Assembly: GCA_025454395.1 (NCBI GenBank)
Contig: JALOOM010000057.1
Span: 1 to 40,965, forward strand
Length of the DNA stretch: 40,965 nucleotides
Direction: 5' to 3'
DNA from: Elainella sp. Prado103
GTDB taxonomy: Bacteria; Cyanobacteriota; Cyanobacteriia; Elainellales; Elainellaceae
Below, piece by piece: positions 8,359 through 33,680 of the stretch. The stretch's first letter is position 1; the number at the start of each line of letters is the position of its first letter. Made by a program: the position numbers and the translations under genes. The notes under the pieces are model-generated. The model saw only the letters and a program-made list of their open reading frames with translations, was not told the DNA's origin and made no database searches.

Positions 8359-8393
8359 CTAGATACCAACCCAGATATCAAACTAGACATCAA
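8359..8393 (-). repeat. Degenerate repeat at the apcF 3' end
   Basis: In the apcF sense direction the last 11 bases, TTGATGTCTAG, are followed by TGATATCTGGG and GGTATCTAG at 12-13 base spacing. This looks like an old, diverged version of the stop-anchored arrays seen at rfbC and glnA. Three imperfect copies only, so chance is not excluded. Confidence 0.5.
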
Positions 8394-8892
8394 TTTCGCT
8401 CAACTCACGAGTCAGGTAGTCAAACGGCTCATCCAGGAATGCTCCGGTCGCAATTCCAGCAGCAGCCACCTGTTCGGTGACGATGTCTTTCATGATCTGA
8501 ATCCCGACCACGGTTGACCCGATCGGCACACCCAGCGAGTTATAGGTTTCTTTCAGCCCATAGAGCACTCGCTCATCCAACACATCGGTACTGCCAGCCA
8601 CCAGCGCATAGCTGGCATAGCGTAAATAGTAGTCCATGTCTCGTAGGCAGGCGGCATAGCGACGAGTCGTGTAGGCATTACCACCGGGACGGATCAACTC
8701 TGGAATATCTTCGAACAGGCGGAGTCCAGCCTGCTTCACGATTGCTGCTGCGTTGCCATTGATGACGGCTGCTGCCTGAATCCGAGCGGTGCCGCTCTCA
8801 AAGTAGGACTTCAGGGTATCAAGCGCGTTGCGATCGAAATATCGACCGGTGGTGTCATAGTTTTTAATCAGGCTGGTCACCGCATCCCGCAT
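8383..8892 (-). CDS. apcF: Allophycocyanin beta-18 subunit
   Basis: This 169-residue core phycobiliprotein belongs to the terminal-emitter trimers of the phycobilisome core, facing the thylakoid. The N-terminus MRDAVTSLIKNYDTTGRYFD is typical of ApcF. The bilin-binding Cys lies in RRYAACLRDMDYYLRY, with the conserved RPGGNAYTTRR loop before it. The family end, EPFDYLTRELSE, is complete. Start: the frame is open upstream to 8967, but the ATG at 8892 gives the exact family N-terminus and has GGGAG ten bases upstream. The gene stands alone, away from the apcABC cluster, as is usual. A diverged repeat covers its stop codon. Confidence 0.96.
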   Translation of the reverse strand: MRDAVTSLIKNYDTTGRYFDRNALDTLKSYFESGTARIQAAAVINGNAAAIVKQAGLRLFEDIPELIRPGGNAYTTRRYAACLRDMDYYLRYASYALVAGSTDVLDERVLYGLKETYNSLGVPIGSTVVGIQIMKDIVTEQVAAAGIATGAFLDEPFDYLTRELSEIDV

Positions 8893-9709: not shown

Positions 9710-11128
9710 ATGGCAACCCCCCAAGAAGTCTTAGGCTTGATCAAAGAGAAGGGCATCAAGCTGATCGACCTCAAATTTATTGATCTGCCCGGTATTTGGC
9801 AGCACTTGACGGTTTACGAAAATCAGATTGACGAGAGCAGCTTCACTGAAGGTGTTGCGTTTGATGGTTCCAGTATTCGGGGTTGGAAAGCCATCAATGA
9901 GTCTGATATGTCGATGGTGCTCGATCCCGACACTGCATGGATCGATCCCTTCATGAAAGAGCCGACCCTAAGCGTCATTTGCAGCATTAAAGAGCCCCGT
10001 ACAGGTGAGCCCTACTCGCGTTGTCCGCGGGTAATTGCTCAGAAAGCGATCGATTATTTACAGGCTAGCGGAATTGGAGACACGGCTTTCTTTGGCCCAG
10101 AAGCTGAATTCTTCATCTTTGACGATGTCCGGTTTGACCAGAATCAGCATGAAGGCTACTACTATGTAGATTCGATCGAGGGACGCTGGAACTCAGGCCG
10201 CAAAGAAGAAGGTGGCAACCTCGGCTACAAGCCCCGCTACAAAGAGGGTTATTTCCCAGTTGCACCCACTGACACCTCGCAAGACATGCGGAGCGAGATG
10301 CTGCTGACCATGGCCGAGTGCGGTGTACCGATCGAAAAGCATCACCATGAAGTGGCAACTGGCGGTCAGTGCGAGCTGGGGATCCGGTTTGACACGCTGG
10401 TGAAGTCAGCCGACAACTTGATGATCTATAAATATTGCATCAAGAACGTGGCTCGCAAGTATGGACAGACCGTCACCTTCATGCCGAAGCCGGTCTTCAA
10501 TGACAATGGATCAGGGATGCACACGCACCAATCAATCTGGAGTGGCGGTCAGCCGCTGTTTGCAGGTGATAAGTATGCGGGTCTGAGCGACATGGGGCTG
10601 TGGTACATCGGCGGCATTCTCAAGCACGCGCCAGCCCTGCTCGCCTTCACCAACCCAACCACTAACTCCTACAAGCGCTTGGTGCCTGGGTTTGAAGCCC
10701 CGGTGAACCTGGCCTACTCGCAAGGCAACCGTTCAGCATCGGTGCGGATTCCCCTGTCGGGCGACAATCCGAAGGCGAAGCGTCTGGAGTTCCGCTGCCC
10801 GGATGCGACTTCTAACCCCTACTTGGCATTTGCTGCCATGCTCTGTGCTGGGATCGACGGGATCAAGAATCAGATTGATCCCGGTGAACCGCTGGATGTG
10901 GATATCTACGACCTCAGCCCGGAAGAGTTGGCCAAGATTCCTTCCACGCCGGGATCGCTGGAAGATGCGCTGGAGTGCTTAGAGAAGGATCACGACTTCT
11001 TGACCGTGGGTGGTGTCTTCACTGAAGACCTGATCAACACCTGGATTCAGTACAAGCTGGATAACGAAGTGAACCCGATGCGTCTGCGTCCTCACCCCTA
11101 CGAGTTTGCCCTCTACTATGACTGCTAA
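9710..11128 (+). CDS. glnA: Glutamine synthetase type I
   Basis: This 472-residue dodecameric enzyme condenses ammonium and glutamate to glutamine with ATP, the main nitrogen entry step in cyanobacteria. Visible motifs: DGSSIRGW at residues 51-58, [13 protein letters not shown] (metal-binding Glu), [24 protein letters not shown], the ATP-binding [16 protein letters not shown], and NRSASVRIP. Length equals the GSI family. Start: ATG at 9710 with AAGGAG upstream. It stands alone with an NtcA promoter and its own terminator near 11272. Cyanobacterial GSI is usually controlled by small inactivating proteins rather than adenylylation; those gif genes are not in this window. The stop codon begins a 17-bp tandem array. 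Confidence 0.98.
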
Positions 11129-11180
11129 AATCCGACGACTGCTAAAATCCAGCGACTGCTAAAATCCGATGACTGCTAAA
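11120..11180 (+). repeat. 17-bp tandem array anchored on the glnA stop codon
   Basis: The final GAC TGC TAA of glnA plus eight following bases form the unit GACTGCTAAAATCCGAC. Copies occupy 11120-11136, 11137-11153 and 11154-11170, with a truncated fourth (GACTGCTAAA) from 11171. Each copy repeats the TAA, and the 17-base spacing shifts it to a new frame each time. Confidence 0.96.
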
Positions 11181-11271
11181 GCCGGACTGTAGCCCGATCG
11201 CAACTCAAGCTTAGCCTGGGGAGCGCTGTCAGGCTTATAAACCGGCAAGTCTGAATTGAATGATTTCATCA

Positions 11272-11334
11272 GGGAGATGCACCGTAGTATCTCCCTTTTT
11301 TAGTATCTCCCTTTTTTAGGGTCTCCCTATTTTT
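11272..11334 (+). terminator. glnA terminator with triplicated 3' arm
   Basis: GGGAGAT (11272-11278) pairs with ATCTCCC (11289-11295) across a ten-base loop, followed by six T: a good intrinsic terminator 144 bases after the glnA stop. The descending arm plus T-run, AGTATCTCCCTTTTTT, is repeated exactly at 11302-11317 and in diverged form at 11318-11333 (AGGGTCTCCCTATTTT). The single ascending arm could therefore pair with any of three 3' arms. Confidence 0.88.
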
Positions 11335-11335
11335 A

Positions 11336-12034
11336 TGAATGTCAAGGTTTGATTAATTTCAGAGGTAGAGATCAGAGATAGGGCTGGACGGGATCGATCC
11401 ACCCATTTCGGCCCATTGATCCGCCGATCGAAGTAATTTTGACCTTCATTGCTTGATCAAATTGATCCCCACCCTCGCTGAATGGGAGTTCAAATTGATC
11501 CCTGATGTTTTTGCCTCATTTCTATTGCGATTTACTTGATTGATCGCAGGTTTCTCTACATTTTGGTTGAGAATCTTTAATTTCTCAAGCTAATTTTTAG
11601 TTTCGTTTAAGATGCATCTAGGGCATTTTAGAGTTGAGGTTAAAGCTTCCGCATGGGAGGCTAACTGAATCTGTGCCAATGTCAGTCGATACAGAACCAC
11701 GGCAGATATAATCTCTTTGGAGGTCGATTTCCAGGAGAAAGATTGGGAACAATATCGAGGAGATCAAGACTAGAATCTAGTTATACCAGAGCTTTTATTG
11801 CGATCATGCATATAACCTGGTGCCAACATTGAGTTTTCGAAACGCTGATTTTGACTTCTTCAAACTAAGCTGAAATACCACCCTTTTATAGGTTTTCTTA
11901 ATTTTAGATTTTCTTAATTTTCATCTTTTCGTGATGTGTTAATGGTCAGGTGTCCTGGTTTGAAATACCCTGCTTAATGCCCTGCTCAATTGGTTTTCGC
12001 CCATTGGCTTACTGTTGTATTTGGATAGGAAATA
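11336..12034. other. Long intergenic region upstream of the GH57 gene
   Basis: About 700 bases of AT-richer sequence without a supported gene. It presumably contains the promoter of the GH57 protein. Small duplications are seen: TTTTCTTAATTTT twice near 11896-11924 and CCCTGCTTAATG/CCCTGCTCAATT near 11969-11993. No known riboswitch or small RNA was recognised. Confidence 0.45.
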
Positions 12035-25882: not shown

Positions 25883-26238
25883 GGGGGCATGGCGGAATGG
25901 TAGACGCTGCGGACTTAGAAAACTGAGCCTTGGTAGAGAAATTTGCCAAGTGACTGCTCTCAAACTCAGGGAAACCTAACTCTAGTCTCTTCAAGAGCCT
26001 GGATACGGCAATCCTGAGCCAAGCCAAATCTGAACCTTGAGCGCAATGAGGTTATCCAAAAGCGATCGAGTTCGGTTTGGAAGGTGCAGAGACCCGACGG
26101 GAGCTACCCTAACGTGTTAAGACGAGGGTAAAGGGAGGGTCCAATCCTCAAGACCGATGTTGGTTGCAGCGAAAGCTGTGAGAGGGTGAAAATCCGTTGA
26201 CTGTTGAAGTCGTGAGGGTTCAAGTCCCTCTGCCCCCA
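25883..26238 (+). tRNA. trnL: tRNA-Leu(UAA), interrupted by a group I intron
   Basis: Exon 1 is 25883-25916 (acceptor GGGGGCA, D-arm, anticodon-loop start GGACTT). Exon 2 is 26189-26238 (AAAATCCG, long variable arm, T-arm GAGGGTTCAAGTCCCTC, acceptor TGCCCCC and discriminator A). The intron splits the anticodon after U34, the usual site in cyanobacteria and plastids. The 3' CCA is not encoded. The exons fold as a complete class II tRNA. Confidence 0.97.
25917..26188 (+). ncRNA. Group I intron of tRNA-Leu
   Basis: This 272-base intron lies between U34 and A35 of the anticodon. Core elements are recognisable: GGTGCAGAGACCCGACGGGA followed by GCTACC (P/Q/R side), and AAGACGAGGGTAAAGGGAGG followed by GTCC (S side, P7). 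It ends with the expected G before exon 2. The length matches small cyanobacterial tRNA-Leu introns; no homing endonuclease is encoded. It is self-splicing by family. Confidence 0.94.
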
Positions 26239-29483: not shown

Positions 29484-30782
29484 ATGGCTATGAATCAACA
29501 AAACTCGGATAATTTTCTCCATCAAACGGGTGCAGCCAAGCGCTCTGTCGCTCAGAAGGTAGGAGCTTTCACCCGCTCTAGTCTGGGCAAATCCTTAGGT
29601 TTAGTGCTCTTGGGCGCAGGGGTCGCGACGGCTGGCACTCAACTGCTCGCTCCATCCCGTCCGGTGACGCAAGCGACTCAAGTTTCGACTACGGTAGCCC
29701 CTGCTACTACTACCACACCCGCGATCGTCTCCCAACTCCCCCCTATCGCGGCCACCAATCCTAACTTTGTCACCAACGTGGTCAAGCAAGTGGGGCCAGC
29801 CGTAGTGCGCATTGATGCCTCTCGTACGGTTCGCAATCGATCGGCCCGCAATGATGATCCGTTTTTCCGTGATTTTTGGGGACAATCTCCCATGGAGCCG
29901 CAGCAGGAACGGACAGAGCGGGGGTTAGGATCGGGCTTTATCGCCAGTAGCGATGGCCGCATTATCACCAACTCTCATGTGGTAGATGGTGCAGACACGG
30001 TAGAAGTCACCCTCAAAGATGGGCGTAAACTGCAAGGGCGGGTGCTGGGGAGCGATCCAGTTACTGATGTTGCAGTGGTGAAAGTCGATGCCACCGATCT
30101 GCCAACCGTCACCCTGAGCAACTCCGATCAAATTCAACCGGGCGAATGGGCGATCGCGATCGGCAACCCCTTGGGGTTAGATAATACGGTCACTGTCGGT
30201 ATTATTAGCGCTACTGGCCGATCGAGCGGTGATGCCGGTATCCCAGACAAACGGGTAGACTTCATCCAAACCGATGCCGCAATCAACCCCGGTAACTCCG
30301 GTGGACCGCTGATGAATGAACGCGGCGAAGTGATTGGGATGAATACGGCCATCCGGGCGGATGCGCAAGGGATTGGCTTTGCCATTCCGATCAACACCAT
30401 TCAACGGATCGCTGATCAACTTGCCAGCAAAGGGAAAGCAGAACATGCTTACTTGGGCGTACAAATGACGACCCTATCGCCGCAAATTAAACAAGAGGTG
30501 AACAGCAACTCCAATATTGGCTTCAACATTAATGAAGAACAGGGTGTGCTGGTTATGCGAGTGGTCGATGGTTCTCCTGCCGATCGAGCGGGTTTGCGCG
30601 CTGGGGATGTCGTCCGTCGAGTCAATGGACAAGAGGTCACAACAGCCGATCAATTGCAAAAACTGGTAGGCGAGTCCAAGGTGGGAGACACGCTGCAAGT
30701 AGAACTCAGCCGCGAAGGCCGCAACCAAACGATCGCGGTTCGCACCGGCGATTATCCAGCCGAACTGAGTCAGCCCAACTAA
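29484..30782 (+). CDS. HtrA/Deg-family serine protease with PDZ domain
   Basis: This 432-residue periplasmic or thylakoid-lumen quality-control protease is of the HhoA/HhoB/HtrA type. An N-terminal hydrophobic segment (SLGLVLLGAGVATAGTQLLA, about residues 37-56) acts as signal or anchor. The trypsin-like domain shows the catalytic triad His165 (ITNSHVV), Asp195 (VTDVAVVKV) and Ser272 (NPGNSGGPL). One PDZ domain follows (VLVMRVVDGSPADRAGLRAG). Which paralogue it is cannot be decided here, so no symbol is given. Its stop codon starts a 14-bp array that runs into the stop of convergent thrB. Confidence 0.96.
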   Translation: MAMNQQNSDNFLHQTGAAKRSVAQKVGAFTRSSLGKSLGLVLLGAGVATAGTQLLAPSRPVTQATQVSTTVAPATTTTPAIVSQLPPIAATNPNFVTNVVKQVGPAVVRIDASRTVRNRSARNDDPFFRDFWGQSPMEPQQERTERGLGSGFIASSDGRIITNSHVVDGADTVEVTLKDGRKLQGRVLGSDPVTDVAVVKVDATDLPTVTLSNSDQIQPGEWAIAIGNPLGLDNTVTVGIISATGRSSGDAGIPDKRVDFIQTDAAINPGNSGGPLMNERGEVIGMNTAIRADAQGIGFAIPINTIQRIADQLASKGKAEHAYLGVQMTTLSPQIKQEVNSNSNIGFNINEEQGVLVMRVVDGSPADRAGLRAGDVVRRVNGQEVTTADQLQKLVGESKVGDTLQVELSREGRNQTIAVRTGDYPAELSQPN

Positions 30783-30824
30783 ATCAGCCCAACTAAATCA
30801 GCCCAACTAAATCAGCCCAACTAA
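30770..30824. repeat. 14-bp array joining the stops of htrA and thrB
   Basis: TCAGCCCAACTAAA is repeated at 30770-30783, 30784-30797, 30798-30811 and 30812-30824 (last base G). The first copy is the htrA end including its TAA. The last copy supplies, on the other strand, the TAG stop of thrB (30821-30823). Convergent genes thus share one array that gives repeated stops to both. Confidence 0.97.
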
Positions 30825-31962: not shown

Positions 31963-33626
<1,664 letters not shown>

Positions 33627-33680
33627 TGCCGCCCATCCTAACAGGAATTCGATCGAAAGCCAGCGCAGTTGCAGCAAAGC

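Follow-up and report, generated by a model that had tools for sequence, protein, structure and literature searches.

The glutamine synthetase gene glnA of Elainella sp. Prado103 very probably ends in an ordinary Rho-independent terminator whose 3′ half, like the stop region of the gene, was duplicated near-neutrally by a process acting genome-wide, the first hairpin being the one that works. According to this explanation, a process that makes short tandem duplications (mostly 9-18 bp) would act throughout the noncoding DNA of this genome. At both glnA sites, the duplication would have started inside a functional element and left its first copy intact, that is, the reading frame with its stop codon in an array of 17-bp units and the hairpin with its U-run in an array of 16-bp units. 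We infer that such a duplication is close to neutral and survives because the first copy of the element stays intact. In the cell, the first hairpin would be expected to terminate transcription, and the extra stop codons and arms would be bystanders.

The window, i.e. the whole stretch of 40,965 nucleotides that was analysed (contig JALOOM010000057.1), carries the features collected in Table 1. Two separate tandem expansions at the end of glnA had been pointed out in an earlier note on this DNA, and both were recovered by Tandem Repeats Finder (TRF) at the same coordinates. The 17-bp array begins nine bases ahead of the end of glnA and the TAA stop codon of the gene (11126-11128) lies within its first copy; the fourth copy provides another in-frame TAA, 51 bases downstream. 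The 16-bp array starts about 150 bases downstream of the glnA stop region. Near glnA, an allophycocyanin beta-like gene was found on the minus strand at 8383-8892 (TIGR01337, 256 bits, cut-off 228).

Table 1. Features at the end of glnA in the window
Feature	Position	Strand	Evidence
glnA, type I glutamine synthetase, 472 aa	9710-11128	+	Open reading frame; NCBIfam TIGR00653 GlnA, 685 bits, cut-off 429.15
17-bp tandem array, 3.6 copies	11120-11180	+	Tandem Repeats Finder: period 17, 88% matches, score 101
Terminator hairpin	11271-11296	+	10-bp stem, 6-nt loop, then T6; -16.4 kcal/mol, z -4.80
16-bp tandem array of the hairpin 3′ arm and T-run, 3.1 copies	11285-11335	+	Tandem Repeats Finder: period 16, 91% matches, score 79
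5-bp hairpin in the diverged third copy, then T5; weak possible second terminator	11317-11329	+	-4.9 kcal/mol alone

The terminator-like hairpin that had been proposed after glnA was confirmed by its stem, its folding energy and the T-run that follows (Table 1). As in an intrinsic terminator, the hairpin is rich in G+C, lies downstream of the gene and is followed by a U-tract directly after the stem. A simple consensus terminator scan did not rise above its own shuffles (2 found versus a mean of 2.7). In passages of PMC13289151, cyanobacteria are described as lacking Rho, and ends formed by a stable hairpin and a U-tract account for 22% of the transcription units of Synechococcus elongatus, more U-rich tracts going with lower readthrough. 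At the glnA end, too, a stable hairpin past the stop codon leads straight into a U-tract; the difference from these terminators is that the 3′ arm and the U-tract are present three times in tandem. The word "tandem" is absent from the main text of PMC13289151. In the titles and abstracts that were searched, most subscription journals lying outside this search, neither a tandemly repeated terminator arm nor slippage at terminators was described, nor was such a repeated arm reported in work on cyanobacterial glnA terminators. When run at its gathering threshold, Rfam gave no entry at the glnA 3′ region. Elsewhere in the window, it recognised a group I intron at 25907-26164 (+), with 66.5 bits, where no gene was called, and a TPP riboswitch at 33535-33632 (-), upstream of a gene that was called on the minus strand (32144-33475).

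The three copies of the 3′ arm end at 11296, 11312 and 11328, respectively. The ten paired bases are identical between arms 1 and 2, while arm 3 has diverged and pairs eight. The earlier suggestion that a single 5′ arm has three possible 3′ partners thus holds as far as pairing is concerned, with only eight pairs for the third. It had been suggested in addition that the arms would be used in turn, giving stronger termination or staggered ends. At fixed pairing, the energies were -16.4, -14.5 and -10.3 kcal/mol for arms 1, 2 and 3, which puts arm 3 at a penalty of 6.1 kcal/mol relative to arm 1. The identical pairs of arms 1 and 2 and the succession of three U-tracts speak for a use in turn, as does the penalty of only 1.9 kcal/mol for arm 2. 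Against it, arm 1 is the nearest (6-nt loop) and the first to emerge. In a growing-RNA calculation, in which the last 10 nt were hidden in the polymerase and equilibrium rather than kinetics was considered, the probability of arm 1 pairing was 0.177 when the chain had reached 11302, 0.741 at 11304 and 0.999 at 11306, and it was at least 0.994 at each sampled chain length from 11306 up to 11344. Under the same conditions, arm 2 peaked at 0.005 and arm 3 stayed at 0.000 to three decimals. The folding thus gives no support to the claim that the arms matter for termination; the extra 3′ arms are predicted to be mostly unused, and their use in turn is very unlikely.

Folding of longer segments was also considered. 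Over the full 226 nt, the structure of minimum energy has the 17-bp array paired with the U-rich repeats, at a frequency of 0.0006, whereas the centroid of the same region keeps the arm-1 hairpin and drops this pairing. Some interaction between the 17-bp and 16-bp arrays may take place, as judged from these models. The use of the repeated pyrimidine arm in a triplex was rejected on the general rules for triplexes, since the repeats have the orientation of the pairing arm and do not mirror it.

The genomic context of the terminator was examined with a simple detector, and 67 terminator-like sites were located no more than 300 nt beyond a stop codon on the same strand. An array with a score of 40 or more was assigned to the 3′ side when it started in the stretch from the loop to 12 nt beyond the stem. 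Arrays were present on the 3′ side of 10 sites and on the 5′ side of 3, with 4.2 expected on each. The 3′-side excess had a Poisson P of 0.011 against expectation and a two-sided binomial P of 0.09 against the 5′ side; in a smaller first run, the figures were 2/23 and 3/23, respectively, with no 3′ preference. This modest excess could mean that repeated U-tracts bring a slight advantage or that duplication is locally favoured. In the whole set of 67, one array (that of glnA) starts in the loop or the 3′ arm, which is unremarkable because about 1.7 were expected; no other site has an array that includes the entire 3′ arm. In several cases (L110:19586, L122:3193, L141:4559 and L151:4986), a tandem array begins with the T-run of a hairpin, and a single hairpin is thus followed by repeated U-tracts. 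Repeated arms, defined as the last 8 nt of an arm and a 6-nt T-run recurring no more than 60 nt downstream, were also searched for in 1.15 Mb; of the 41 terminator-like sites there, two matched, namely glnA and 17856 (-). The latter match, although included in this count, was judged spurious, being part of a long array, and the repeated arm was rejected as a habit of the genome.

These data bear on the possibility that the repeats act as a backup, in which polymerases passing the first U-tract would meet two more and the small hairpin at 11317-11329 would serve as a weak second terminator. The 3′-side excess, the repetition of the T-run at several sites and the relation of U-rich tracts to readthrough in the passages on Synechococcus elongatus cited above are consistent with a backup, as is the small hairpin with its T5. 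This hairpin is weak, however, and competes with other pairing, which is preferred over it in a 77-nt fold, and the comparison with the 5′ side reaches only the P value given above. We therefore regard a backup function as quite unlikely and the first hairpin as the one expected to work.

Next, related glnA loci were compared. Among the matches listed there were 80, and in 78 of them the sequence continued for 250 nt or more past the stop codon. The same detector found a terminator in 66 of these 78, and in none of the 66 (first terminator of each locus, among the matches listed) was the arm repeated, which argues further against arms that matter for termination and against their use in turn. 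Still among the matches listed, an array with a score of 40 or more was present in the 460 bases examined in 22 of the 78 relatives, and in two of them (L003 and L014) it covers the glnA stop codon itself, with units that differ from those in the window. In L003, whose protein is 95% identical, the stop region is perfectly duplicated with a unit of 13 bp, a length unlike that in the window. Thus, duplication of the stop region recurs with different units among the matches listed, and the terminator-arm array appears so far to be private to this genome within the same set. When 36 genomes of the family were compared over 11100-11345, no conserved 3′-UTR element was found: the region was matched in four of them, the genome's own and three that aligned over only 29-30 bases at the end of glnA.

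The frequency of tandem arrays was established on a sample of 1,878,208 bases, consisting of the window and 100 stretches, 60 of which are contig starts. Arrays with a score of 50 or more and a period of 6 or more were counted; gene calls came from a codon-usage script and terminator calls from a hairpin-plus-T script, both of them simple. The sample contains 983 arrays, of which 633 are intergenic, 83 lie over a stop codon, 31 over a start codon and 236 inside genes; the window alone has 26. Since a Markov null gave 4 arrays against the 615 observed in a 1.15-Mb sample, neither glnA array is a chance match. Examples within the window are the arrays at 2007-2114, 30757-30824 and 31963-32149, all of which extend over a stop codon.

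If the 747 arrays that lie between genes or over a gene edge were placed at random, 86.1±8.6 would be expected over stop codons and 90.7 over start codons. Stops are therefore covered at expectation (16 versus 19.5 expected in the first 408 kb), which ruled out stop-anchoring as a special feature, and starts are avoided, with the reservation that starts chosen by the script are less certain than stops. Among 1357 called genes, 378 had at least one array within 250 nt downstream and 78 had at least two. The glnA arrays are not unusual in this genome, where arrays at stop codons and terminators are routine, and this also weighs against a role of the repeated arms in termination.

For arrays inside genes, the unit length was a multiple of three in 231 of 242, as predicted by selection against damage to the reading frame. 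This pattern is unlike what artefacts would leave. The genome is a draft in 157 contigs, and one or both of the glnA arrays might on that account have been created by assembly or sequencing; the arrays are short (61 bp for the 17-bp units and 51 bp for the 16-bp units) and their copies differ by substitutions, which also makes such an origin extremely improbable.

The duplication process that, in the preferred explanation, would have produced both glnA arrays can be characterised by its unit lengths. As the peak in the unit lengths given by TRF was suspected to be an artefact of scoring, exact duplications were counted with no score threshold, and the peak at 14 stayed. In 418,849 noncoding bases, 610 exact tandem duplications with units of at least 9 bp were present, against 2 in the null. 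Their units are mostly 9-18 bp long with a mode of 14 (49 cases at 9 bp, 96 at 14, 17 at 18 and 5 at 20), and 740 distinct units were found among 741 TRF arrays. With units of 17 and 16 bp, the glnA arrays fit this class of locus-specific duplications.

Heptameric short tandem repeats of cyanobacterial intergenic DNA are known as STRR. Passages of PMC4679880 report TAACTGA repeats in cyanobacteria and repeats that overlap the stop codon of the upstream gene in 13 Beggiatoaceae ORFs. The glnA arrays share with the heptameric repeats the head-to-tail intergenic arrangement, sometimes over a stop codon; unlike them, they have units of 17 and 16 bp rather than 7, are specific to their locus and are not built from one shared heptamer. 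With tandem duplication by replication slippage, the arrays of this genome share head-to-tail copies of adjacent DNA, and those inside genes keep the frame. The joints differ. Of 250 simple two-copy cases, 96 had a match no longer than one unit, 43 a match longer by 1 base and 17 a match longer by 2 bases (156 in all), close to the ratio expected by chance (134.9, 71.6 and 28.5 if all 250 were homology-free). In the other 94, the excess was three bases or more; these are read as partial third copies, and longer microhomology would look alike.

In addition, the density of exact duplications was compared between genomes. It was 14.6 per 10 kb of noncoding DNA in this genome and 11.8, 1.6, 5.2 and 0 in four relatives of the genus (small counts, from 31 kb of noncoding DNA or less each). 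Of ten genomes of the family (units of 9-20 bp), seven had values of 0-2.8, and the remaining three had 12.2, 13.8 and 6.2, again with small counts, each from 12 kb of noncoding DNA or less. The 80 glnA loci among the matches listed had 2.1 per 10 kb of noncoding DNA (likewise a small count), 7-bp units being the commonest. Tentatively, and at somewhat less than an even chance, both glnA arrays may be footprints of a distinct process of this lineage, pronounced only in certain species of the family, which would create duplications of 9-18 bp (mode 14) in nearly unrelated sequences, largely without microhomology, by fill-in and joining of staggered breaks rather than by classical slippage.

In this organism, arrays over stop codons or beside terminators are thus to be expected, and they can be read as function only with transcript data. 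The measured background of the genome takes the place of a tempting regulatory story for glnA. A better lead is offered by the duplications themselves, whose narrow range of lengths suggests that they arise in a particular manner.
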